The notes under the pieces: generated by a model
Databases searched by the model: none
What the model saw: the letters and a program-made list of their open reading frames with translations, nothing else
What the model was told of the DNA's origin: nothing
Made by a program: the position numbers and the translations under genes
Shown here: positions 30,116 to 46,206 of the stretch, piece by piece
Position numbering within the stretch: position 1 is the stretch's first letter
How the letters are laid out: the number at the start of each line of letters is the position of its first letter
Origin: Lentzea albida
GTDB taxonomy: Bacteria; Actinomycetota; Actinomycetes; Mycobacteriales; Pseudonocardiaceae
Direction of reading: 5' to 3'
DNA: 64,000 bases
NCBI RefSeq assembly: GCF_900111005.1
Contig: NZ_FOFV01000008.1
Span: 186,001-250,000, forward strand

Positions 30116-30121
30116 TAACTT
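30116..30121 (+). promoter_or_regulatory. -10 element (TAACTT), probable leaderless promoter of DUF3558 gene
   Basis: TAACTT ends 7 nt before ATG 30129 with no ribosome site between them. Confidence 0.45.
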
Positions 30122-30128
30122 GGCCGTC

Positions 30129-30728
30129 ATGCGTCGACTTGCCGTCCCGTTCCTGCTGGCAGCGGTCCTGACCGGGTGTTCTTCGACAGAGCCCGGCAAG
30201 CCCTCCGCGGGGGACCAGACGGGCTCCGCGCCCACGACCGGTTCTTCGGCCGGGAACGCCCCGGTGAACAGGCCGAAGGCCGTCGACATGAAGTCCGTGG
30301 ACGTGTGCGGGCTGATCACGGCGGACGCGAAGACGACGCTCAAGATCCAGTCGGCGACCGAGCGGGAGTCCCCCGCGGACTACGGCGAGGGCACCAAGTC
30401 GTGCGGCCTGCTGTTCCAGCAGCCCCGCACCTACGGCGGCAGCCTCTACACGCTCACCAACGGTGGTGTGGATCGCCTCAAGAGGACGGTGGGCAAGACC
30501 ACCGAACTCACCGAGACCACCGCTTCGGGTTATCCCGCCTACCTGGCCAAGAACATCACCGAGGGGTCGCAGCCGGACTCCTGCGACCTCTACATCGACG
30601 CCAACGACGGGCAGTTGTTGCTGGTCAAGATGGGCCCGCTCATCGGGGTGGAGGCTCCGCTCGACGGTGCCTGCGAGCTCAGCAAGAGCATCGGTGCCGC
30701 CGTCGGCACCGCTCTCGCGACCGCCTGA
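30129..30728 (+). CDS. DUF3558 family lipoprotein
   Basis: 199 aa from ATG 30129. A lipoprotein signal with the lipobox LTGCSS puts the acylated cysteine at about residue 18, so the protein is anchored to the outer face of the membrane. A Ser/Gly/Thr linker is followed by the DUF3558 domain: VDVCGLITADAKTTL, CGLLFQ and a late SCDLYIDANDGQLLLV with paired cysteines. DUF3558 proteins are common in mycolata and related genera and often lie near ESX genes, as here. Function unknown. Confidence 0.82.
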   Translation: MRRLAVPFLLAAVLTGCSSTEPGKPSAGDQTGSAPTTGSSAGNAPVNRPKAVDMKSVDVCGLITADAKTTLKIQSATERESPADYGEGTKSCGLLFQQPRTYGGSLYTLTNGGVDRLKRTVGKTTELTETTASGYPAYLAKNITEGSQPDSCDLYIDANDGQLLLVKMGPLIGVEAPLDGACELSKSIGAAVGTALATA

Positions 30729-30851
30729 CGGTTGAGTAGAACTACTCCGCTTTTACCGGGAACCACCCGCCGCCGTCATGCATCAGAGCTAAAGTCGTCC
30801 CAAATGCACACACGGTCCATTCCTGAGGGGCCGTACTGAGGAGGGTGTGCC

Positions 30852-31223
30852 GTGTTTCTCGCGGATGGTGGAGGTGGCGCGTCGTCGCCGCCCCAGTTCG
30901 GTCAGCGCAAGCTGAAGGTGGACCCGTCAGCGATTCCACAGGCAAGAGCCGCCTTCGAGAAGGCGCTGGACGAGTTCGACGGCAAGCTGGCCGACGCCGT
31001 GGCCGACCTCCCCACGAGGCCGTGGGCGGAAGACCCGATCAGCGACGAGACGTCCAAGAAGTTCAACCAGCAGACGAGCGACAAGGCGCTGGAGGCGCTG
31101 ACCGCCTACCGCAAGCAGCTCGTCGGCGTGATCGACCAGCTCAAGGCGATCGAGCAGCAGTACATCCTCACCGAGGGCGACAACGCCGCGATGTGGGGCA
31201 AGCACCTGCGTGACCAGGCCTGA
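30852..31223 (+). CDS. PE-like / WXG-like small secreted protein
   Basis: 123 aa from GTG 30852. A Gly/Ser-rich N-terminus of about 15 residues is followed by two predicted amphipathic helices (about 28-53 and 65-110), the helical hairpin form of ESX substrates. The T7SS export motif YxxxE appears as YILTE at residues 104-108. There is no N-terminal PE dipeptide and no WxG, so it is a divergent member. The following PPE-like and EspG-like genes support the role as PE partner of a PE/PPE heterodimer. Confidence 0.65.
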   Translation: MFLADGGGGASSPPQFGQRKLKVDPSAIPQARAAFEKALDEFDGKLADAVADLPTRPWAEDPISDETSKKFNQQTSDKALEALTAYRKQLVGVIDQLKAIEQQYILTEGDNAAMWGKHLRDQA

Positions 31224-31238
31224 GAGGGGGACTGACCG

Positions 31239-32510
31239 ATGACTGACCACCGCTTCCAGGGGTACGGGCACCCCGAGCTGTACAAGATGATCAACTCCGG
31301 TCCCGGCGTCGCCGCCTCCATCCCGGTCGAGCAGGGCTGGAAGAGGGTCGCCGCGACCCTCAAGCAGATCGACGACGACCTGCACGCCGGTCTGGCGAAG
31401 ATGGGCGCGGACTGGGAGTCCGACGCCTCCGACGCCGCCCAGGGCGCGCTGTCGCCGCTGGCCGAGTGGGCCGGTTTCGCCGAGACCGGCGCGACGACCA
31501 TGGAGAGCTCCGCGCGCCTGCAGGGCGAGTACATCGCCGACGCGCGCAAGAAGATGCCCGAGGTCGTCCCCGTCACGACCGAGAAGCCCGGCTTCCTCGA
31601 CATCGCCGCGGGCGCGCTGACCGGTCCGGTCGGCATGGCGCACGTCGTGAGCCAGCAGCTCGACCACGAGCGCCAGGAAGCCGCCGCGGACAACGCCGCC
31701 GCCCAGGCCGTCAAGGTCATGGAGGACTACCAGTCGGACAGCCGCTGGAACTCCTCGACGCTCGGCGAGTTCCCGACGCCGCCGCAGGTCGTGATCGACA
31801 CGCCGCCTCCCGCCGACACCGGCACGGGCAGCACGCGAGTCGGCTACGGCCCGACCGGTTCGGCCGGTCCCTCCGGCACCGGCACGACCACCCCGTCGTG
31901 GGCCACGCCGGTGTCGACGACCCCGCAGCAGCAGGTCTCGACCGGCTGGACCCCTCCGCCGACCGACACCACGCACACCTCGTGGACGCAGCCTCCGACG
32001 ACGACGCCGCCTCCCACGCACACCCCGCCTCCCACGACGCTGCCCAACCCGGGACAGACCCACAACCCGACGACGACGCCTCCCGGCGGTCCGGTGTTCA
32101 CCCGGCCCGGTCTGACCGGTCCCGGTGGCCCCGGCGGCTCGAGCAGTGGTGTTCGCGCCGGTGGCGCAGGTGGTGCTGGTGGCGGCAAGGCGTTCGGGCC
32201 GATGTCCGGCTCGCTCGGCTCCGCCGGCCAGCAGGGCGCCATGAAGCCCGGTGGCATGCCCGGCGGCCTCTCCGGCGCCATGGGCTCCGGTCCTGACGCG
32301 ATGCGCGGCGGTGCCGCGGGCGTCGGTGCGGGCGCGGGCAAGGGTGGTGCGGCCGGCGCCGGCATGGGCGGCGCGGGTGCGCACGGCCAGAAGGGCGAGG
32401 GCGAGGACGACATCGAGCACAAGGCGGCCGACTACCTGGTCGAGACCGACGACGTGTTCGGCGACGAGCGCATGGTCGCGCCGCCGGTCATCGGCGGCCT
32501 GTCGGAGTGA
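31239..32510 (+). CDS. PPE-like type VII secretion substrate
   Basis: 423 aa from ATG 31239, 15 bp after the PE-like gene. The N-terminal half is helical (VEQGWKRVAATLKQIDDDLH, then GADWESDASDAAQGALSPLA, with a WxS-type turn). From about residue 170 the protein is Pro/Thr-rich, then Gly/Ala-rich to about 400, and ends in an acidic tail near EGEDDIEHKAADYL. The architecture fits a PPE/EspB-like substrate with a disordered C-terminus. Its stop overlaps the EspG-like start, so substrate and chaperone are coupled. Confidence 0.72.
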   Translation: MTDHRFQGYGHPELYKMINSGPGVAASIPVEQGWKRVAATLKQIDDDLHAGLAKMGADWESDASDAAQGALSPLAEWAGFAETGATTMESSARLQGEYIADARKKMPEVVPVTTEKPGFLDIAAGALTGPVGMAHVVSQQLDHERQEAAADNAAAQAVKVMEDYQSDSRWNSSTLGEFPTPPQVVIDTPPPADTGTGSTRVGYGPTGSAGPSGTGTTTPSWATPVSTTPQQQVSTGWTPPPTDTTHTSWTQPPTTTPPPTHTPPPTTLPNPGQTHNPTTTPPGGPVFTRPGLTGPGGPGGSSSGVRAGGAGGAGGGKAFGPMSGSLGSAGQQGAMKPGGMPGGLSGAMGSGPDAMRGGAAGVGAGAGKGGAAGAGMGGAGAHGQKGEGEDDIEHKAADYLVETDDVFGDERMVAPPVIGGLSE

Positions 32511-33313
32511 GCCTGTTCGGCGCAGCAGCGGAGAGGGAGCCGATCACCCTCTCCGCCGAGGAGTTCGACGTCGTGTGGGAACGGTTGGACGTCGGCCCCA
32601 TGCCGCTCGTGCTGAAGGTTCCCACCCCGGGCAAGACGCGCGACGAGCGCATCCAGCTCGAGAACCGCGTCTACCAGCAGTTGGACCACCGGCGCCTGGG
32701 CAACTCGCGCGGCCTGTCGTCCCAGCTGGAGGGGCTCCTGCGCATGTTCGTCAAGCCCGAGCGGGAGGCGGACGGCCGCCTCTGGCTCGGCCACAGCCTG
32801 CGCGTCCTCGCCGTGGCGAACGGTGACTGGGGCGCGCTCGCGACGTTGCGGGACGACCAGCTGACGTTCCAGCCGTGGGCGGGCTCCGGGCTCGCCTCGG
32901 CGGTGCTGTCCGTCCTCCCCGCGCACCCCGCCGGCACGGGCATGTCCGTGACGCTGCCGAGCGAGGACATCGAGAAGGCGATCGCGAAGACCGACGGCTC
33001 GCCGAAGTCGATGGAGGCCGCGTTCCGCGGCATCGGGCTGCGCGAGGACGACGCGAAGGCGCTCGTGAAGATGTTCACCGGCCTCGTGCACACCGGGAAC
33101 TTCGGCGCGGCCGCCCGCGACAAGTACGGCAAGCGCTGGCGCCCCGAGCGCGTGGTCGCGTTCTTCGACACCGAAGAGGGCCGCTACCTGCAACAACGGC
33201 GTGCCTCGAACGGTCAGCCGCCGTGGAGCACGTTCACGCCGACCGACGCGCGCCGGATGATGCACCAGGTCGACGAGCTGATCGCCGAAGCGAGCCGTTC
33301 CGCGGGCGTCTGA
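32507..33313 (+). CDS. ESX secretion-associated EspG-like chaperone
   Basis: 268 aa from GTG 32507, overlapping the PPE-like stop by 4 bp. EspG features: N-terminal ITLSAEEFDVVWERLDVGPM, the central LRVLAVANGDWGALATLRDD and C-terminal SRSAGV. In mycobacteria EspG binds the tip of PPE proteins in the cytosol and hands PE/PPE dimers to the ESX machine. Translational coupling to the PPE-like gene fits that role. No EccA-like partner is in the window. Confidence 0.82.
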   Translation: MSLFGAAAEREPITLSAEEFDVVWERLDVGPMPLVLKVPTPGKTRDERIQLENRVYQQLDHRRLGNSRGLSSQLEGLLRMFVKPEREADGRLWLGHSLRVLAVANGDWGALATLRDDQLTFQPWAGSGLASAVLSVLPAHPAGTGMSVTLPSEDIEKAIAKTDGSPKSMEAAFRGIGLREDDAKALVKMFTGLVHTGNFGAAARDKYGKRWRPERVVAFFDTEEGRYLQQRRASNGQPPWSTFTPTDARRMMHQVDELIAEASRSAGV

Positions 33314-33369: not shown

Positions 33370-35013
33370 ATGAGCATCGACAGAAGGTCGTTCCTGCTGG
33401 CTACGGGAGCGGCACTGGTCGGGACGTCGACGATGACGGGGACTGCCTCCGCGCAGTCCTCAGCTTCGCTGTGGCAAGAGTTCGTTGCCGACCCGTACGA
33501 CCACCCGCAGATCCCGAACGTCGCCTACGCCGGCTACCGCACCGGTGAGAAGCCCGCCCGCCGGCCGGTCCTCGCGAACGTGCTGTTCTTCGGCGCCCGG
33601 CCCGACGGGTCGGCGGACGCCTCCGCCGCGATCAACAAGGCGATCGAGTTCGTCGGCAGGCTCGGTGGCGGCACCGTCCACGTGCCACCGGGCCGCTACC
33701 GCATCGACGACGTCGTCCGCATCGGCTACGACAACGTCGTGCTGCGCGGTGCGGGCAGCGGCCGGACGACGTTCTACGCGACCAGGTCGCTCGAGGAGAT
33801 CGTCGGCATCAACCGCAGCCGGTACGGCTCGGAGAACTCGGCCTGGAGCTGGTCGGGCGGCCTCGTGTGGGTCTGCCACCGCGACCGCTACCAGCCGCTG
33901 GTCGACGCGATCAAGGCGCGCAGGTGGCCGTTCGAGGGCTGGACGGGCAACGAGCTGGAGCAGGGCTCGACGCTGACGGCCGTGACCGGTTCCGCCGCAA
34001 GGGGGTCGTTCGTCGTGACCGTCGAGAACGGACGGTCGCTGCGGGCGGGTCAGCGCGTGCTGCTGCGGCTGGACGACTCGGAGTACTCGCTGCCCAAGCA
34101 CATGTGCGGCGACGTCCCCGGCACTGCGAGCTACCGCTGGGACGACAAGGACAAGCTCCTGTCGTACTTCCCGTTCCTGTGGCCGGTGCGCGTGGAGTGG
34201 GTGCGCGGCAACAGGGTCAAGCTCGCGCAGCCGTTGCCGCTGGAGATCCGCCCGGAGTGGAAGGCGCGCCTCACCACGATGGCGCCCGTGATCACCGGTG
34301 CCGGCGTCGAGGGCATCAAGATCGAGATGTTCAAGGTGCCGACCCCGAAGCACCTGCAGGACAAGGGGTACAACGGCCTCGCGTTCCAGTGCGCGTGGGA
34401 CTGCTGGGCCGACGACGTGCACGTGCAGGACGTCGACAACGGGTTCCTCCTGGTGTCCTCCAAGGGGATCTCGCTGCTGAACACCCGCGTCTCCGGCCGA
34501 GGTCACCACCACGCGTACGCCGTGCGCGAGCAGTCCCACGACAACCTGACCGACGGCTTCGTGATCGAGGCCCCGTCCGAACCCTCGCAGGCGGGCGCCG
34601 GCAACCACGGCCTGAACGTGGAAGGCCTGTCCTGCGGCAACGTCTGGACGCGCGGCCGGATGGACCACGACGTCTTCGACACCCACCGCGGCCTGCCGTT
34701 CGCCAACGTCCGCACCGAGATCACCATCAACAACGTGGGAGCCCACGGCGGCAGCGCCAACGCGGGCCCGCTCTACGGCGCCCGCTTCACGCACTGGAAC
34801 GTCACCGTCACCAACCAGCGGGCCGGCAACGTCCGCATCGACCAAGTCGCGCCGTGCAGCGCCACCGTGGCGATCTCCGAGGTCCGCGACTTCGGTCAGG
34901 TCGACAAGCCGGACTTCACCGGCGACCTGAACTCCCGGCTGGAGCTCTACGGCACGACGTCCGTGGTTCCGCGCAACCTCTACGACGCACAGCGGAAGCT
35001 GCGCCGCTCATGA
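33370..35013 (+). CDS. Tat-exported right-handed beta-helix protein (pectate-lyase-like)
   Basis: 547 aa from ATG 33370. The N-terminus has a twin-arginine signal, RRSFLLATGAALVGT, with cleavage near ASAQS. LANVLFFGARPDGSADASAA is the typical start of GH28/pectate-lyase-3-type beta-helix proteins, followed by GGGTVHVPPGRYRIDD and repeated short beta strands to the end. The fold suggests polysaccharide lyase or hydrolase activity, but no catalytic residues can be assigned. It lies between the EspG-like gene and the two EccC-like genes; the last 6 bp overlap the convergent neighbour. Confidence 0.75.
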   Translation: MSIDRRSFLLATGAALVGTSTMTGTASAQSSASLWQEFVADPYDHPQIPNVAYAGYRTGEKPARRPVLANVLFFGARPDGSADASAAINKAIEFVGRLGGGTVHVPPGRYRIDDVVRIGYDNVVLRGAGSGRTTFYATRSLEEIVGINRSRYGSENSAWSWSGGLVWVCHRDRYQPLVDAIKARRWPFEGWTGNELEQGSTLTAVTGSAARGSFVVTVENGRSLRAGQRVLLRLDDSEYSLPKHMCGDVPGTASYRWDDKDKLLSYFPFLWPVRVEWVRGNRVKLAQPLPLEIRPEWKARLTTMAPVITGAGVEGIKIEMFKVPTPKHLQDKGYNGLAFQCAWDCWADDVHVQDVDNGFLLVSSKGISLLNTRVSGRGHHHAYAVREQSHDNLTDGFVIEAPSEPSQAGAGNHGLNVEGLSCGNVWTRGRMDHDVFDTHRGLPFANVRTEITINNVGAHGGSANAGPLYGARFTHWNVTVTNQRAGNVRIDQVAPCSATVAISEVRDFGQVDKPDFTGDLNSRLELYGTTSVVPRNLYDAQRKLRRS

Positions 35014-36696
35014 CTCGGTCATCCTGATCGGCAACGACCACACGACGTCGTTCAGGTCGGTGGGGAGCACGACCCTCTCCACCGACCTGCCGATCCGCCG
35101 CACCCAGCCCTGCTCGGTGAACTCCAGCCGGTACGAGCCGTGCTCGCCCGGAGCCGTGTCGCACAACAGCAGGTGCTGGCCGTAGGTGCGCCCCGCCGTG
35201 GCCAGCGTCCGCAGGACCTCGGCGAACTCCGGGCGCTCCTCGAGCAACGCCTGCACGCCGTCGACGCAGACCAGCAGCTCGGGCAGGACGAGCCCGGCGG
35301 CCCGGTAGTCCCAGATGTTGCGGAAGTTGTTGTGCGCCAACGTTCTGGTGCGTTGCTCGTGGTCCTCCAGCAGGTCCACGATGCCGTGCCGGATGTGCGG
35401 TGCGCCGTCGATCCCCGCGAACACACCGCTGCCGTGAAAGTCGACGAGGACGACCTGGAGTTCGTCCGGTGAATGCCGTGCCATCAGCCCGAGCGTCAGC
35501 GCCCGAACAGCTTCCGCCCGTTTGTCAGCGGGCGCGATCACCTCGCCGTGCGGCCCCATGCCGTCCTGCAGGTGCTTCGACTTGAGGTCGATCTCCACCG
35601 GCTGCCCGTGCTCGTCCACGCCGACCGGCACCCGGTACTGCAGCTTGACCGGTCGCGACCGCCACGCGTGCCGGTTCGGCATCTCGTGCAGCGCGAAGAA
35701 GCCGGGCGCGCGTTCGTCCTGGTGCATCAACGCCGGCAGGTCCCGTGCGGCCTCGTCGAGGTTCGCGGGCACCAGGCAGTCGCCGACCACCACGTCGGCC
35801 AGTCCGCCCGGCCCGTCGAGCAGGAGCTGCACACCGGACTTGCCGACGTCCTGCGCGACGGCCTCGAACACCTCCGCGCCGATGTCCCCGAACCCGCTCA
35901 CGCACACCAGGAGCTGCGGCATCACCTGGTCGAAACCCCGGTGGTCGAAGACGGTCCACGTGTTGCCCACGACCTCGAGCCGGCGCTCGGACTCCTCGAC
36001 GAGCAGGTCGGCGATCTTCTGCGGATCCCGCGCCGCGTGCCGATGACGTGCCACGACGTGCGGAGCCTGGTCGAGCCCGTCGAACACGTCGGAGTCGTGC
36101 GCATCGATGAACCACGCCTGGAACAACTTGGGCGAGTGCGTCGTCATCAGCCCGAGCACCAGACTCCGGAAGGCCTCCCGCGACGGGACGGCCAGGTGCG
36201 ACCCGGTGCGCCACTTGCCGTCAGCGAAGTGCGTCAACTCCACGACGACCGGCGCACCGCTCTCATCGACACCGACCGGAACCTTCCACCACCGCCCCTT
36301 CCACGCGAGCGCCTTGGTGAACCGCGCCATCCCGTGCAACGACAGGAAGTCCAGCACCTCGACCCGCAACGGCAACCGCTCCGGCAGCTCGTCGAGCGCC
36401 CGAGCCGTGACGATCACCCGCACGTTCCACGAGGCCGCCGCGATCCACCGCACGGTGTCGGCGAGCCCGGGATCGTGGTCACAGCAGTACTTCCAGTCGT
36501 CGACCAGCAGCGTCGCGCCGGGTTCCGCACCCCGTTCGAACCAGGCCAGCAGGTTCTGCCGCCGCCGCTCGTCACCGGGCTCGAAGCTCACCGCGACCCC
36601 CGGCACCTCACCCCGGCCGATGCGGTAGAGCCCTGGCACCACGGCGATCCGGCGTGCGACGAGGTCCGGCGGCCCCACCAGACCGAGGTGGTTCAC
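35008..36696 (-). CDS. EccC-like pseudo-ATPase, three degenerate domains
   Basis: 562 aa. Three P-loop-like modules resemble T7SS EccC ATPase domains. Module 1 (about 1-120): LGLVGPPDLVARRI replaces a Walker A, and ATLLVDDW is the DD strand. Module 2 (about 138-295): KVPVGVDESGAPVVVELTHF, site HLAVPSREAF without GKS/T, QLLVCVSG in place of Walker B. Module 3 (about 354-515): RVPVGVDEHGQPVEIDLKSK, DGMGPHGEVIAPADKRAE (EccC has GATGSGKSE here), VVLVDFHGSGVF, LLVCVDG. All three lack the Walker A lysine. No transmembrane helix. The ATG overlaps the stop of the sister gene. It may be a scaffold or regulator; not a working ATPase by itself. Confidence 0.7.
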   Translation of the reverse strand: MNHLGLVGPPDLVARRIAVVPGLYRIGRGEVPGVAVSFEPGDERRRQNLLAWFERGAEPGATLLVDDWKYCCDHDPGLADTVRWIAAASWNVRVIVTARALDELPERLPLRVEVLDFLSLHGMARFTKALAWKGRWWKVPVGVDESGAPVVVELTHFADGKWRTGSHLAVPSREAFRSLVLGLMTTHSPKLFQAWFIDAHDSDVFDGLDQAPHVVARHRHAARDPQKIADLLVEESERRLEVVGNTWTVFDHRGFDQVMPQLLVCVSGFGDIGAEVFEAVAQDVGKSGVQLLLDGPGGLADVVVGDCLVPANLDEAARDLPALMHQDERAPGFFALHEMPNRHAWRSRPVKLQYRVPVGVDEHGQPVEIDLKSKHLQDGMGPHGEVIAPADKRAEAVRALTLGLMARHSPDELQVVLVDFHGSGVFAGIDGAPHIRHGIVDLLEDHEQRTRTLAHNNFRNIWDYRAAGLVLPELLVCVDGVQALLEERPEFAEVLRTLATAGRTYGQHLLLCDTAPGEHGSYRLEFTEQGWVRRIGRSVERVVLPTDLNDVVWSLPIRMTES

Positions 36697-38390
36697 GGGA
36701 GCGCGATCTGGGCGTGGAGACGGCCGGGCAGGGAGAGGCCGAACCCCGGCCGGTCCGGCACGCGGGCGGCCTGCCGGGCGTCGACCAGTGACGTGGCCGG
36801 GTCGTCGAGGCGGAACTCGACGGCGAACGCCAGGCTATTCCTGATGAACGGCGGCACCTGGTCCCAGGAGCGGGCGGTGACGACGATGTGGCGTCGCGGG
36901 TCGAGGGGTTCGCCGGGGCCGTCGAGGAGCTGGTAGCGCTCGGGGTCGCCGAGGACGGCGCCGAGCGTGCGCAGGGTCGTGCTCTTGCCGGTGCCCGGCT
37001 TGCCGACGATGGCGCCGTGGCGTCGTTCCCGGGTGAAGGTGGGGACCAGGACGTCGCGGCGCTGTTCGGAAGGCAGGTCGACCAGGCCGATGGCTCCCGG
37101 CGGGAGCATGGCGAGCGACAGGCCCGCAGGGGACGGAGGTGGCGGTACGTCCATCGGCCGCACCGCGTCCACCGGCCGCATCGCTTCTGCTGGCCGCATC
37201 GCGTCCAACGGCCGTACCGCGTCCCCTGGCCGTACCGCGTCCACCGGCGGCACCAACTCCACTGGCTGCACCACCTCCCCCACCCCGTCCGAAGTGGACG
37301 GACGCGGCGGCAGCGTGAGCTTCTGCGTGGCCTGGAACGCCCCGGCCGGCGGCTGGGCCAGCACGTGCGCGGGCGGGCAGGTACCGGCGAGCGCCGGCGG
37401 CAGGACCTCCGCCCACTCCTCCAGGTCGTACGGCGGCACCGCGGCGGGCCAGGCGGGAATCTGCGCCGGCAGCGGAGCCGCGAGCCCGTCGCCGGAGTAG
37501 AGCAGGTGGACGCCGAGCTCGTGGCCCGCCCCGCTGAGCGACTGCAGCAGGCCGCGGTAGGCGGGGCACCGTTCCACCAGCGTCTCGGGGCTGTCCACGC
37601 AGACCATGAGGGCGGGGAAGGGCTCGCCCGCCTGCCTGAGCCGGCGCCGGCGGTCGAGCTCGGCGGCCAGACCGTCGTGGAACTGCTGGAGCACTTCGTC
37701 GTCGTCCTCGCCCGACAGCGCGCACGCCACGTGCGGCGCCGTCTCCAGGCCGTCGAACAACCCGACGTTCTTCATGTCGAAGAGGGCGAAGTTCAGGTCG
37801 GCCGACGAGTGCGTGACCATGAGGCCCAGCAACGCGCTCAGCAGCTTCTGCTCGCGGTCCGCCGGCCTGCCCAGGCAGGCGGCGAGGGTGCTGTTGACGT
37901 CGATGTAGACGGGCCAGCCGCGGGCGTCGGCGCCGATGGCCGCACGGAGGTCGTGGCGCTGGTACCTGTTGCCCAGGTCGGGCTCGATCTCGTGCAGCGC
38001 CAGGAAGTCCGTGGCCTCGCCGTGCAGGTGCCGCCGCAGCCGGTCCGGCACGTCCGACCACTTCCGCGCCGTGACGACGACCTGCACGCCCCGCGCCGGC
38101 CCGAACGCCGCGATCCACTCGACGGTCCTGTCCAGCTCCCCGTCGAGACCGGAGCACAGGGCCCAGTCGTCCATCAGCAGCACGGCACCCGACGGCGCGC
38201 CGCGCTCGAACCAGTCCAGCAGGCTGCGGCAGCCCGGTGCGTCGGCCGGGTCGAAGGTGGCCGAGACGGGCAACGGGTCCGCTCCCCTCCCGATCCGGTA
38301 CACCGAGATGTTCGGTGCCGCCGCCAGCGCCGTCGTGAGCCGCTCCCTGGTCGCCTGCCCGGGACCGACGACGGCGAAGTTCCTGATCAC
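36693..38390 (-). CDS. EccC-like protein with two degenerate domains and one intact P-loop
   Basis: 565 aa. Module 1 (about 1-130): NFAVVGPGQATRERL in place of Walker A, AVLLMDDWAL and VQVVVTARKWSDVP. Module 2 (about 155-300): VYIDVNSTLAACLGRPADRE at the lost Walker A, LNFALFDMKNVGLFDG, LMVCVDSPET with the Walker B glutamate lost. A Pro-rich linker (about 335-425) contains a six-residue repeat. The C-terminal module (about 430-565) begins IGLVDLPSEQRRDVLV as in EccC domain 3 and has an intact Walker A GKPGTGKST, but is compressed. It shares VTAR-W motifs with its sister, arguing for duplication. The stop overlaps the downstream gene by 4 bp. Confidence 0.7.
   Translation of the reverse strand: MIRNFAVVGPGQATRERLTTALAAAPNISVYRIGRGADPLPVSATFDPADAPGCRSLLDWFERGAPSGAVLLMDDWALCSGLDGELDRTVEWIAAFGPARGVQVVVTARKWSDVPDRLRRHLHGEATDFLALHEIEPDLGNRYQRHDLRAAIGADARGWPVYIDVNSTLAACLGRPADREQKLLSALLGLMVTHSSADLNFALFDMKNVGLFDGLETAPHVACALSGEDDDEVLQQFHDGLAAELDRRRRLRQAGEPFPALMVCVDSPETLVERCPAYRGLLQSLSGAGHELGVHLLYSGDGLAAPLPAQIPAWPAAVPPYDLEEWAEVLPPALAGTCPPAHVLAQPPAGAFQATQKLTLPPRPSTSDGVGEVVQPVELVPPVDAVRPGDAVRPLDAMRPAEAMRPVDAVRPMDVPPPPSPAGLSLAMLPPGAIGLVDLPSEQRRDVLVPTFTRERRHGAIVGKPGTGKSTTLRTLGAVLGDPERYQLLDGPGEPLDPRRHIVVTARSWDQVPPFIRNSLAFAVEFRLDDPATSLVDARQAARVPDRPGFGLSLPGRLHAQIALP
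37156..37281. repeat. seven 18-bp tandem repeats inside the EccC-like gene
   Basis: Seven units of 18 bp with consensus GGCCGCACCGCGTCCACC, starting at 37156, 37174, 37192, 37210, 37228, 37246 and 37264; the last two are more diverged. On the coding strand they encode a six-residue Pro-linker unit of the type V-D-A-V-R-P. The in-frame period keeps the linker translatable when copies are gained or lost. Confidence 0.85.
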
Positions 38391-38436
38391 GGCCCCAGGT
38401 ATACCAACAGCCCCCGGAGCGCCGCCGCCCCTTCGC

Positions 38437-38442
38437 TAATGT
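38437..38442 (+). promoter_or_regulatory. -10 element (TAATGT), probable leaderless promoter of sterol-carrier-family gene
   Basis: TAATGT ends 7 nt before GTG 38450. The gap GGGCGGC has no proper ribosome site. Confidence 0.45.
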
Positions 38443-38449
38443 GGGCGGC

Positions 38450-38827
38450 GTGCCAGCCAAAGCCGTCGACCCCGCCGAGATGCGCGCCGCCGTGCAGGCC
38501 GTGCTCCCCTGGTTGCGCGGTGAGGCTGACCAGCCAGAACGTCCCGTGCTCGCCGCGGCGGTCCGGCTGAGCCTGCGCACCCTCGAGCAGATCGCGCCCG
38601 GCCGCAGCGTCGAGGTGCGCGTGCCGCCGTTCGCCGCCGTGCAGTGCGTCGAGGGCCCGCGCCACACCCGCGGCACGCCCCCGAACGTCGTCGAGACCGA
38701 CGCCCGCACGTGGCTGGAGCTGGCCACGGGCGCCCTCGGGTGGGACGCCGCCCTGGACGGAGCCCGGGTCACCGCGTCGGGGACCCGGGCCGACCTGTCA
38801 CCGCTGCTGCCGGTCGTGAAGTTCTAG
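38450..38827 (+). CDS. sterol-carrier-family protein
   Basis: 125 aa from GTG 38450. The family pattern VDPAEMRAAVQAVLPWLRGE, LRTLEQIAPGRSVEVRVPPF, CVEGPRHTRGTPPNVVETD and WLELATGALGWDAAL is strongly conserved in actinobacteria, where this gene normally sits close to purF. It resembles an SCP2-like lipid-binding fold; ligand unknown. Here it lies between the EccC-like pair and the hydrolase/EspC pair, so the pur-linked backbone reappears inside the T7SS island. Confidence 0.82.
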   Translation: MPAKAVDPAEMRAAVQAVLPWLRGEADQPERPVLAAAVRLSLRTLEQIAPGRSVEVRVPPFAAVQCVEGPRHTRGTPPNVVETDARTWLELATGALGWDAALDGARVTASGTRADLSPLLPVVKF

Positions 38828-38834
38828 AGAAGTT

Positions 38835-40805
38835 CTAGAACCAGGACCCGATCGTCTTCGCCACGCCACCGACGCCCTCGACGACGTCCCGGCCCAGCTC
38901 GACCGCGTTGCCGACGGTGTCGACCACCACGTCACCGACGTCGCTCGCCACCTCGCCGACGGTGTCCACCGCGTGCCCGGCCGCGTCACCCCAGCGGCCG
39001 TTCGAGATGTCGTCCACGACCTGACCGCCACCGCGCCAGAGGTCCTCGCCCATGTCGACGACCTCCTTGCCGGTGTTGACGCCCCAGTCGATGACCGGGC
39101 CCGCCACCGGCAGGTCCGAACCGGGCACCTCGACGGGCTGCGGCGAGTCCTGCCAGCGCTGCTCGGTGACGCTGCCGCCCTCGCCGTTCGCGATCTTGGC
39201 GATGTTGTCGAGGGACTCGGTGCCCTGGTCGTAGTAGGACGAGTGGGCGTGCCCGATCCACGACTCGCCGGACGTGCCGAAGGTCTTGGCGCCGAACGAG
39301 GAGTCGTACGGACCGGTCGACGACCCGTCCTTGGTGAACCAGTCGCCGCTCGTGGCCTGGATGACCGGGTCGTGCTCGGTGCCACCGACGTAGACGTGCC
39401 CGGCACCGGCGGAGAGCTGGTCGACGTGGGACGCGCCGACGCCCGGCGAACCCACGAAGACGATGTCGTCCGCCTTCAGGCCGTTGTCCATCGCGGAGTA
39501 GCCGACGACCGTGCTGCCGTAGCTGTGGCCGACCACCGTGACGTGGGCACCGGGGTTGGTGACGCGGTAGCCCTCGACGTCCTTCGCGAGGATCGCGCCT
39601 CCCTCGCGGGCCTGCGCGGGGTCGTTCACCTGGCCGGGGAGGAACTCCGGGGCGTCGTAGCCGAGCCACTGGATCGCGGCGCCGTCCTGACCCATCTTCG
39701 CGCTGAGGTTGGAGGCCTGGTCGAGGCCGAAGCTGCTGAGCGTCGACGTGGTGCCGGGCACGCACACCGCGAGGTTCTTCGCCGTGTCCGGGTTGCCGAA
39801 CGCGACGGCGATCGCGCCTTCCTTGGCACCGGCACCGTCCGGGCTCCAGGCGAGCACGTAGGCCCGCTTGCCGGTCTCCTCGCTGAGCTGCCCGGCCTTG
39901 TCCAACGCGCCGACCGCGTCGTCCGCGTTCTTCGCCCGGCGAGCCGCTTCGTCGTACTGCGCCATCAGCTGCGAGCCCTGGGCGTCGTTGCGCAGAGCGC
40001 GCTGGCCCTCGGACGAGTTCGGGTCGACGCCGAGCTCGCGGGCGCGGTCGGCGAGCTGCTGCTGGAGCCGGTCCTTCTCCGCGTTGAACCGCGCCGCGTC
40101 CTCGGGGATCCGCCTGCGGTTCGCGTAGTCGAGCACTTCGGCCGGAAGCCCGCGGAGCTGGCCGAGCTCCTGGTACCTGGTGTTCTTGAGCGCTTCCTGC
40201 TGGTCCTTGCTGAGCGACTTCCACCAGTCGGCGACGGCCTTGGGGTCGGATCCCGGCGGCGGCACCGGCGGCAGCGCACCACCAGGAGCGCCGGCCTGGG
40301 CGGCGCGGCTCCAGCCGCTGTCCGACCGCGCGGCCTCCTCGAAGCCCGGCGGGATCTTCGTCAACGCACTCGCGTAGGAGCGCAGAACGTTGTCGTAACC
40401 CGACTTCACGTTGTTCAGCGCGTTGTTGACCTGGTTCGCGAGCTGACGGGTCTGCTCGGCGTCCAGGCCCGGCGGACGGCCGCGCCACACGCTGATCGCC
40501 TGGTCCGCCGCGCCCCTCATCTGGCCGTAGGCGCGCGAGGCGGCCTGGACGATGTCGACGCCCGCGCCGAGTCGTTCGGCGGCGGCCTTGGCGGCGTTCG
40601 CGGACAGCTGGGCCCTGGCGGTGAACTTCGTGGCGGCGTCACCGGTCCAGCTGCTGACGGCGGTCTTCCCGCCGTTGGCGACGGACTCGCCCGCGCGGCC
40701 GACCGCGCTGATCGCACCGGTGATCGGGTCGGCGGCGGCAGCGATGCGGCCGACGTCACCGGACGCGAGCCTGCCGTACAGGCTCTCGGGATCCGTGAAG
40801 CTCAC
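38835..40805 (-). CDS. WXG-like N-terminus fused to DUF1023 alpha/beta hydrolase (putative T7SS effector)
   Basis: 656 aa from GTG 40805, which overlaps the EspC-like stop by 4 bp. The N-terminal about 115 residues are helical with a WTG turn at 53-55 (SSWTGDAATKF). A Pro-rich and coiled middle follows, then the DUF1023 hydrolase (about 340-560) with nucleophile Ser428 in VVGHSYGSTV, an acid in the VGSPGVGASH region and a probable late histidine in GHAHSSYY. The last ~90 residues form amphipathic V/G/D repeats. It probably acts on an ester or lipid outside the cell; substrate unknown. The open frame to 40919 is not coding. Confidence 0.82.
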   Translation of the reverse strand: MSFTDPESLYGRLASGDVGRIAAAADPITGAISAVGRAGESVANGGKTAVSSWTGDAATKFTARAQLSANAAKAAAERLGAGVDIVQAASRAYGQMRGAADQAISVWRGRPPGLDAEQTRQLANQVNNALNNVKSGYDNVLRSYASALTKIPPGFEEAARSDSGWSRAAQAGAPGGALPPVPPPGSDPKAVADWWKSLSKDQQEALKNTRYQELGQLRGLPAEVLDYANRRRIPEDAARFNAEKDRLQQQLADRARELGVDPNSSEGQRALRNDAQGSQLMAQYDEAARRAKNADDAVGALDKAGQLSEETGKRAYVLAWSPDGAGAKEGAIAVAFGNPDTAKNLAVCVPGTTSTLSSFGLDQASNLSAKMGQDGAAIQWLGYDAPEFLPGQVNDPAQAREGGAILAKDVEGYRVTNPGAHVTVVGHSYGSTVVGYSAMDNGLKADDIVFVGSPGVGASHVDQLSAGAGHVYVGGTEHDPVIQATSGDWFTKDGSSTGPYDSSFGAKTFGTSGESWIGHAHSSYYDQGTESLDNIAKIANGEGGSVTEQRWQDSPQPVEVPGSDLPVAGPVIDWGVNTGKEVVDMGEDLWRGGGQVVDDISNGRWGDAAGHAVDTVGEVASDVGDVVVDTVGNAVELGRDVVEGVGGVAKTIGSWF

Positions 40806-41125
40806 TTGCCGCCCCCAAAACCGCTCAGAAGCTTCTTCAACGCGGACGCGTGCTCGTCGTCGGTGCGCTGGTAGGCCTCGGCGTTCGACACGAGACCCTC
40901 CGCGGCATCGGTCATCCACGCGGAGCCGCGCTGCAGGTCCTGGGAGTGCGTGCCGACGAACCTCGCCAGCGCGTCCGCGAACTCCGCGGCGGCGTCGACC
41001 TCGCCGAGCGCGCCCGCGTCGAGCCGGAGCATCGAGATCATCTCGGCCGCCTCGCGCACCGCGTCGGAGCCGTTGCCGAACTCCTTGGACGCGGTGCGCA
41101 GCAGGTCTGGCTCAACGCCGAACAT
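40802..41125 (-). CDS. EspC-like type VII secretion target
   Basis: 107 aa from ATG 41125; GTG 41131 is an alternative. It matches the EspC/DUF2580 layout: FGVEPDLLRTASKEFGNGSD, a helical hairpin and a Gly-rich end. The export motif YxxxD is present as YQRTD at residues 85-89. EspC-like proteins are ESX substrates often encoded next to a partner. Here the stop overlaps the WXG/hydrolase gene by 4 bp, so this is probably its co-secreted partner. Confidence 0.8.
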   Translation of the reverse strand: MFGVEPDLLRTASKEFGNGSDAVREAAEMISMLRLDAGALGEVDAAAEFADALARFVGTHSQDLQRGSAWMTDAAEGLVSNAEAYQRTDDEHASALKKLLSGFGGGK

Positions 41126-45069: not shown

Positions 45070-46206
45070 TTGGACAGGGACCGCGAGTTCGGGGAGTTCG
45101 TCGACGCACGTGCGCTGGTCATGCGTCGCACGGCCTATCTGCTGTGCGGCGACTGGCACCGCGCGGAGGACATAGTCCAGACCGCGTTGATCAAGATGTA
45201 CGTGGCCTGGTCGCGCGTGCGCAAGGAGAGCGCCGACGCCTACGCCCGCAAGGTGCTCGTGCGGACCGCGATCGACGAGACGCGGCGCGGCTTCTTCCAG
45301 CGCGAACGGACCGTCGACGCCGTGCCCGAGTCCGCCGTCACGGACTCCGCCTCCGACCTCGACCTGCGCGAGGCCCTCGACGCCCTGCCTCCGGGGCAAC
45401 GCGCCGTCGTCGTGCTGCGCTACTGGGAGGACCTGAGCATCACCGAGACCGCCCGCATCCTCGGCAGGACGGAGGGCACGGTGAAGAGCCAGGCCGCCAA
45501 GGGACTCGCCGCGTTGCGCGACCTGCTGGAGGACGAGCCGGTGTCGCGGATCTACACCTCCGAGGTGATCCGCAAGGGCAGGACCAAGCTCGTCCGGCGC
45601 CGCACCGCCATCGCGGGCTCCCTGGCCTTCGTCCTGCTGGTGGGTGCCGGCGTGAGCGGCTACCTGGCGACGCCGCACAAGGCGGCGGCTCCCTCGATGT
45701 CGCAGGACTCCGCCGGCGTGGTCGACCGCAACGACGCGGCGACCCGCGCCCTGCGCGACGGGAACGTCCTCCCGGCGGGCGTGACGGCCGAGGACGTCGG
45801 CGAGGTCAAGGCGCTGACCTTCTACGAGAAGGACCAGACGCGGTACGCGGTGGCGCGGCTGACGGACGCAGCGGGCGCGAGCGGACTCACGATCGTCCTC
45901 ACGCGTGCGAGCGGTTCCAGGCAGACCTGCGAGCAGATCCAGGCCACCGACTGCCGGCTCGAGCAGATCAACGGCGTCACGGTCCTGAGCTACTCGGACC
46001 GCGGCATGAGCGACGGCGCCGCCATGTGGGTGGTGTCGGCGACCAGGCCGGACAACACGGACGTGCTCGTCCAGAGCGACCCGTTCGGCGTCTTCCGCGG
46101 CGACCCCTACCGGCCCGACACCTCGGCGCCGCTCGCTCGGCCGACACCGGTCCTCGACCGGGACGCCCTCATAAAGATCGCGACACTTCCGGGTCTGACC
46201 TTCTAA
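45070..46206 (+). CDS. ECF sigma factor fused to a transmembrane and extracytoplasmic domain
   Basis: 378 aa from TTG 45070, with a GAGGAGGGGGC ribosome site. Region 2 is [20 protein letters not shown]; region 4 is PPGQRAVVVLRYWEDLSITE and RTEGTVKSQAAKGLAALR (to about residue 152). A basic stretch (169-178, KGRTKLVRRR) precedes a transmembrane helix at 179-199 (TAIAGSLAFVLLVGAGVSGY) and an extracytoplasmic domain of about 175 residues. The other two sigma factors here have this membrane module as a separate protein. Tethering would confine the sigma to the membrane unless it is cleaved. A frameshift in the source data is possible but the frame is open throughout. Confidence 0.87.
   Translation: MDRDREFGEFVDARALVMRRTAYLLCGDWHRAEDIVQTALIKMYVAWSRVRKESADAYARKVLVRTAIDETRRGFFQRERTVDAVPESAVTDSASDLDLREALDALPPGQRAVVVLRYWEDLSITETARILGRTEGTVKSQAAKGLAALRDLLEDEPVSRIYTSEVIRKGRTKLVRRRTAIAGSLAFVLLVGAGVSGYLATPHKAAAPSMSQDSAGVVDRNDAATRALRDGNVLPAGVTAEDVGEVKALTFYEKDQTRYAVARLTDAAGASGLTIVLTRASGSRQTCEQIQATDCRLEQINGVTVLSYSDRGMSDGAAMWVVSATRPDNTDVLVQSDPFGVFRGDPYRPDTSAPLARPTPVLDRDALIKIATLPGLTF

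Follow-up and report, generated by a model that had tools for sequence, protein, structure and literature searches.

Does the type VII secretion system (T7SS) have soluble pseudo-motor regulators at all? This question is raised by two adjacent genes in a stretch of 64,000 nucleotides from Lentzea albida (NCBI RefSeq assembly GCF_900111005.1, contig NZ_FOFV01000008.1, positions 186,001 to 250,000; hereafter the window, in whose coordinates all positions are given). A first-pass annotation, made from the sequence alone, had placed two adjacent minus-strand genes at 35008..38390, and both are present there: P2, the upstream gene (36693..38390, minus strand, GTG start, 565 aa), and P1, the downstream gene (35008..36696, minus strand, GTG start, 562 aa). 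The annotation had further described their products as soluble derivatives of the T7SS motor EccC that form a separate two-gene unit and have lost nearly all of their nucleotide sites, a description with which our profile searches, hydropathy values, and motif counts agree. The roles of the several degenerate ATPase tiers of EccC are unsettled, and conserved dead tiers that are soluble and free of both the membrane and an active first ATPase domain (D1) would let one ask what such tiers do in their own right, be it in assembly, gating, or cargo choice.

Results

The kinship of P1 and P2 with EccC is far beyond chance. The pair scored 44.4 and 40.4 bits against Pfam FtsK_SpoIIIE (PF01580), passing the gathering cut-off of 24. 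In NCBIfam, P1 matched EccCa (E=1.4e-44) and P2 matched EccCb (E=4.8e-33), with both missing the equivalog cut-offs (153 vs 509.15 bits in TIGR03924 for P1; 114.3 vs 346.55 bits in TIGR03925 for P2). The EccC of T. curvata matched the two proteins at E=8.9e-33 and 3.5e-23. The division into six ATPase modules, three per protein, was recovered by profile, and the structure models are in line with it. P2 consists of a compact D2-like N module (P2N, residues 1-130, 38001..38390, minus strand), a D1-derived middle module without a P-loop (P2M, residues 138-345, 37356..37979, minus strand), a linker of low model confidence (residues 346-424, 37119..37355, minus strand), and a compact D2 module with a P-loop (P2C, residues 425-565, 36696..37118, minus strand). 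P1, which has no P-loop, consists of a compact D2-like N module with an alpha/beta fold (P1N, residues 1-122, 36331..36696, minus strand) followed by two D1-derived modules (P1M1, residues 123-335, 35692..36330; P1M2, residues 336-562, 35011..35691; both minus strand). Four relatives (loci L011, L012, L013, and L063) carry an extra C-terminal compact D2 module on P1 (P1C), with the motif GKPGSGRTT, in which the Walker lysine is replaced by arginine.

We built profiles of the EccC domains D0 (DUF) to D3 from 24 EccC proteins of the family and compared the modules with them by hhalign. D1 was the best match of P1M2 (E 7e-43), P2M (E 7e-36), and P1M1 (E 2e-18), and D2 was the best match of P2C (E 2e-28) and P1C (E 1e-22). 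P2N matched only the part of D2 from Walker B to beta4 (E 8e-9) and P1N matched weakly (E 5e-4), while the two N modules matched each other at E 2e-39. By the same comparison, neither the DUF nor D3 was the best match of any of the seven modules; the strongest D3 score (E 9e-6) belonged to P1C and the strongest D0 score (E 4e-5) to P1M2, each of which has its far better match given above. The predicted structures agree with this assignment where they are confident (blocks of the P2M model have predicted local distance difference test [pLDDT] values of 58-92, mostly 80-92); the pair derives from EccC, as the first-pass annotation had proposed. The four EccC framework strings that it had quoted all occur in the translations, and all of them lie in P1.

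A tree of the D1-type modules (40 rows: 22 EccC and 6 of each module) separated the EccC D1 rows from all D1-type modules of the pair by a branch with support 100/98 and placed P1M1 and P1M2 as sisters (97/92); a 51-row version agreed, with lower support. In the D2-type tree, P1C and P2C clustered apart from EccC D2 with support 99. These trees fit descent from one EccC-type source lying beyond the EccC clades we sampled, or else rapid change once the copy had been made; they contain long branches and do not single out any EccC as the donor.

We searched 24 genomes of the genus Lentzea (cited below by genome codes beginning with G) and found full-length P2 in 23 and P1 in 21; the unit occupies the same syntenic place in every one of the 24, and in three it is reduced. 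Across these proteins, the only intact Walker A of the pair is that of the C-terminal P2 module, as had been claimed: GKPGTGKST (residues 463-471, 36978..37004, minus strand), which follows the pattern GxPG[TS]GK[ST]T in 23/23 full P2 proteins, while none of the 21 P1 proteins has a lysine-bearing P-loop. The remaining sites had been said to contain no lysine; this holds at the P-loop position itself, and the last module of P1 does have a lysine in IAPADKRAE. In P2N the P-loop position reads GPGQATRE, and in the models of P1N, P1M1, P1M2, and P2M only 2-3 residues separate beta1 from alpha1, which amounts to a collapsed P-loop. The corresponding spacing is six residues in P2C, in a low-confidence stretch, and was unmeasurable in P2N.

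Walker B has fared better than the first-pass annotation held when it called this motif mostly broken, since the aspartate is usually kept in five of the six modules. The N modules retain the form hhhhDD (LLMDDW in P2N and LLVDDW in P1N; 23/23 and 20/21 proteins, respectively), and the aspartate is present in P2M (21/23), P1M2 (20/21), and P2C (23/23, as QLLDGP). P1M1, where both Walker motifs are gone, is the sole module to have lost it, and has done so in 21/21 proteins. The Walker B of the three D1-type modules reads DS, DG, SG, and similar, with DE changed to DG in P1M2, and in the 23 P2 and 21 P1 proteins none of the three amounts to a catalytic D1, for which Walker A would read GxxGxGK[ST] and Walker B DE. 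Partial degeneration of EccC had been acknowledged from the start, and a section of PMC11154593 indeed describes D2 and D3 of canonical EccC as having degenerated Walker motifs; the loss that matters is thus that in the three D1-type modules.

The surviving P-loop sits in a compacted D2 and not in a D1. In the P2C alignment, hardly anything separates the P-loop helix from the Walker B strand, where QLLDGP (residues 487-492, 36915..36932, minus strand) stands against VFLIIDGW of D2, so the intervening part of D2 has been cut out; IIDGW is found in a D2 of this same genome. QLLDGP, including its invariant aspartate, is identical in 23/23 full orthologues, and P2C is, as read from its alignment, reduced to a compact P-loop core in which Walker A is complete and the Walker B aspartate is kept. 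No transmembrane helix was found in either protein, in agreement with the original description: the top 19-residue hydropathy was 1.49 for the 23 P2 proteins and 1.76 for the 21 P1 proteins, compared to 2.22-2.28 for four EccCs.

P1 and P2 are real genes. P1 directly follows P2 in 21/21 genomes that have both, and the two always overlap by the same 4 bp, GTGA, in which the stop codon of P2 meets the start codon of P1 (36693..36696, minus strand), which makes translational coupling from P2 to P1 probable. In 23/23 genomes with full P2, a ctgttggtata(c/t) box lies 7-9 nt before the P2 GTG (38399..38410, minus strand) and resembles what may be the extended -10 element of a leaderless mRNA. P2 has 565 aa in this genome, where an 18-bp tandem repeat of 6.9 copies at 37148-37272 lengthens its linker; the other 22 full-length orthologues have 488-522 aa.

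Selection was assessed as omega, the ratio of nonsynonymous to synonymous divergence (Nei-Gojobori), in nine chosen close pairs only, giving 54 module values. All 54 were below 0.75, 46 were at or below 0.4, and 42 were below 0.3, with values of up to 0.74 in the P2 middle module. Among the P2 modules, mean nonsynonymous divergence (dN) was lowest in the N module (0.027) and highest in the middle module (0.090), which also has the largest mean distance. The pair is mostly under purifying selection across Lentzea. P1 is missing in G126, G132, and G135, the last of which encodes a free-standing P2 N module of 127 aa (L112:8624-9001) that covers P2 residues 1-130, keeps YRIGRGADPLP and VVDDW, and clusters with P2N rather than P1N.

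No genus other than Lentzea was found to carry the pair when profiles were run against 346 genomes of the family and 397 of the order, two overlapping samples. The family scan, which scored at most 11 candidates per genome, matched the N-module profile in 47/346 genomes: strongly in the 24 Lentzea genomes (best E 1.1e-56 or better) and weakly in the other 23 (E 2.5e-10 or worse), where the matches cover profile positions 59-126 and lie, bar one 211-aa frame, in frames of 729-1683 aa that resemble EccC D2. In the order scan, 5/397 genomes matched at E 1e-9, all of them Lentzea. The pair lies in Lentzea between an EspG gene and an SCP_3 gene, and 143 genomes of other genera had an SCP_3 match. 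Twelve of these regions, mostly the best scoring and covering seven genus codes, were taken, and none contained P1 or P2 at E 1e-4. EspG adjoins SCP_3 in 11 of the 12 (G113 has no EspG there), the aligned ends lying 11-96 bases apart in 10 of those 11. In G145 the gap is 934 bases and holds pieces of a pectate-lyase gene, of which there are none in the 10 other EspG regions. Because the 12 regions lack the pair and 11 of them keep EspG, the simplest reading is that the pair is a lineage-specific insertion into an ESX accessory cluster that predates it, and that a pectate-lyase-like gene entered at the same place.

The history within Lentzea can be told in two ways. The order in a 4-gene tree, in which G135 has 31% of the columns, runs from G135 (N module only) through G126 and G132 (P2 only) to the 21 genomes with both genes, which suggests stepwise build-up of the pair. 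In the midpoint-rooted tree of N modules, P1N is separated from every P2N, G135 included, which suggests later losses instead. P2 alleles fall into two classes (17 and 6), which require three changes on the 4-gene tree, of which well-supported branches force only one. A 5-gene tree was not used, owing to the divergent alleles of its hydrolase gene.

Discussion

The likeness of the pair to EccC (T. curvata, PDB 4nh0/4n1a; M. tuberculosis EccCb1-D2, 9jv8) lies in D1 and D2, by profile and by fold, and extends to the DG that EccC D2 likewise has in place of the Walker B DE. We do not class the pair as EccC, because it fails on several of the defining features that we tested: it has no transmembrane helices, no recognized DUF or D3, and no active D1, its D2 is compacted, it is encoded by two soluble genes, and it scores far below the EccCa and EccCb cut-offs. 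Its D1-type modules also differ from FtsK/SpoIIIE motors in lacking an active Walker A/B pair. Degeneration within EccC and the splitting of EccC are already known from the portions of PMC11154593 and PMC6954902 that treat them. In the account of EccC5 given in part of the former, the degenerate Walker A of the DUF (PDB 8rin) is an extended helix and ATP is reported not to be bound; the models of P1N, P1M1, P1M2, and P2M, in which a helix follows directly after beta1, resemble it, whereas that DUF is part of a membrane-bound EccC and the modules of the pair match D1 or D2 better by sequence. In ESX-1, according to a passage of PMC6954902, an EccC-type motor is likewise spread over two genes, EccCa1 and EccCb1, with the split falling between ATPase1 and ATPase2; P1 and P2, in contrast, each hold an N module and a D1-type module and do not sum to a complete motor. 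At the level of titles and abstract openings, our searches of open-access papers yielded neither a separate soluble EccC derivative nor a six-module, two-gene arrangement with one compacted P-loop.

Computation establishes the kinship with EccC D1 and D2, the lack of a membrane anchor, the loss of the D1-type sites, the single compact D2 with a P-loop, the overlap, and the conservation beside an ESX cluster. We infer from these, tentatively and with a probability of about 0.42, that P2 and P1 are a soluble EccC-derived pseudo-motor pair that senses nucleotide and adapts or regulates an ESX system. P1 and P2 would bind each other, and P2C would bind ATP without efficient hydrolysis and act as a switch. 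The D1-like modules could dock on the D1/D2 tiers of the true EccC hexamer or on substrate-EspG complexes, and the pair might in this way tune or select the ESX export of its WXG100-like, PPE, or Abhydrolase_8 neighbors; the pair itself would not drive transport. A role as a substrate receptor seems weaker than one as regulator or adaptor, because D3, which carries an hhhhDD motif and binds EsxB or the substrate signal in other systems (as set out in a section of PMC6954902), was the best match of no module, and direct copying of the D3 receptor role is less likely.

Several observations weigh against a regulator or adaptor of an ESX system. In 11/12 other-genus regions the EspG/PPE cluster is found without the pair, and P1 is missing in 3/24 Lentzea genomes; that cluster can therefore do without the pair, and the ESX neighborhood may be a chance of insertion, because an unrelated pectate-lyase-like gene shares the place between EspG and SCP_3. 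A D3-type substrate domain was not recognized in any module by hhalign, and P2N and P2C were modeled with low confidence (pLDDT blocks 27-67). Co-divergence of P1M1 and EspG fell from 0.43 in 23 genomes to 0.07 in 20 genomes with control genes entered singly, a rerun that left out G126 and G132 (without P1) and G105 (without the pectate-lyase gene). That of P1M1 and P1M2 with PPE stayed at 0.27-0.42, yet the control pair of GH2 and Abhydrolase_8 scored 0.65.

We considered that the pair could instead be an inhibitor or decoy whose dead subunits insert into or cap the D1-D2 rings of EccC and keep the motor idle until they are released, perhaps through ATP binding at P2C. All D1 catalytic motifs are lost while the D1 and D2 folds remain, the pair, encoded on the other strand from the ESX cluster, has a start of its own that is preceded by a conserved -10-like box, and ATPase domains 1 and 2 of EccC/EssC are reportedly auto-inhibited through linker binding, as stated in part of PMC6954902. 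We regard this as unlikely, though sequence cannot tell it from an adaptor. Similarly doubtful is a repurposing outside secretion, in which the EccC modules serve some unrelated process as a scaffold or signaling ATPase and the pair only happened to land in the ESX neighborhood. The syntenic block without the pair in the other-genus regions examined, the pectate-lyase-like gene at the same place, the lack of a D3 module, and the presence of purF-purM as neighbors in 22/23 relatives would all fit, but EccC descent combined with an EspG/PPE neighborhood kept in 24/24 Lentzea genomes outweighs either alone. A decaying, functionless eccC duplicate, to which the absence of P1 in three genomes, the reduction to an N module in G135, and the fast P2 middle module might point, is highly improbable and was rejected, given the full open frames of 23 P2 and 21 P1 orthologues, the low omega values, the P-loop and QLLDGP kept in 23/23, the identical overlaps, and the conserved upstream box. 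An anti-phage defense ATPase was also rejected, as the PADLOC matches came down to 28 P-loop residues of P2 (mad8, E 5e-8) and a weak hit on P1 (SspH, E 0.024).

If P1 and P2 do regulate or adapt an ESX system, a bolder and rather improbable version is that they form a genus-specific, nucleotide-gated mimic of EccC that docks on the cytosolic tiers of the true EccC and redirects or gates the export of neighboring WXG100-like, PPE, or Abhydrolase_8 proteins. The pair would then be a detachable control ring of the T7SS, in which the stripped-down D2 would be the only nucleotide sensor among six modules.

Genomic neighborhood

The neighboring ESX accessory cluster (30120..33313, plus strand) comprises genes for DUF3558 (30120-30728), a 123-aa protein of WXG100-like size (30852-31223), PPE (31239-32510), and EspG (32507-33313). 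DUF3558, PPE, and EspG were assigned by Pfam; the 123-aa protein is named by size and place and has no family match in NCBIfam. A pectate-lyase-like gene (33370-35013, plus strand) lies between EspG and the pair and converges with P1; it is absent from G105 among the 23 relatives. On the other side, the SCP_3 gene (38441-38827, plus strand) is divergent from P2 and is followed by an Abhydrolase_8 gene (38835..40919, minus strand), whose product is a possible ESX cargo; its N-terminal part contains an SWTG motif, as the sequence itself shows. DUF3558, the 123-aa gene, PPE, EspG, SCP_3, and Abhydrolase_8 flank the same place in 23/23 relatives (E 1e-8), and purF and purM follow, within the 20 kb covered, in all but G135. 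No ecc core family was found among the ten neighbors scanned with Pfam, a scan that did not include the 123-aa gene. Downstream of purM, a 378-aa frame at 45070-46206 marks the region of a SigE-family extracytoplasmic function (ECF) sigma factor (TIGR02983, 160.9 bits, above the cut-off). The Abhydrolase_8 alleles of G121, G123, and G127 are 63-64% identical to that of the window, compared to 69-90% in the other 20 relatives, and the divergence of the Abhydrolase_8 gene tracks the divergence of GH2 (partial r 0.65), as though alleles had been exchanged by recombination.

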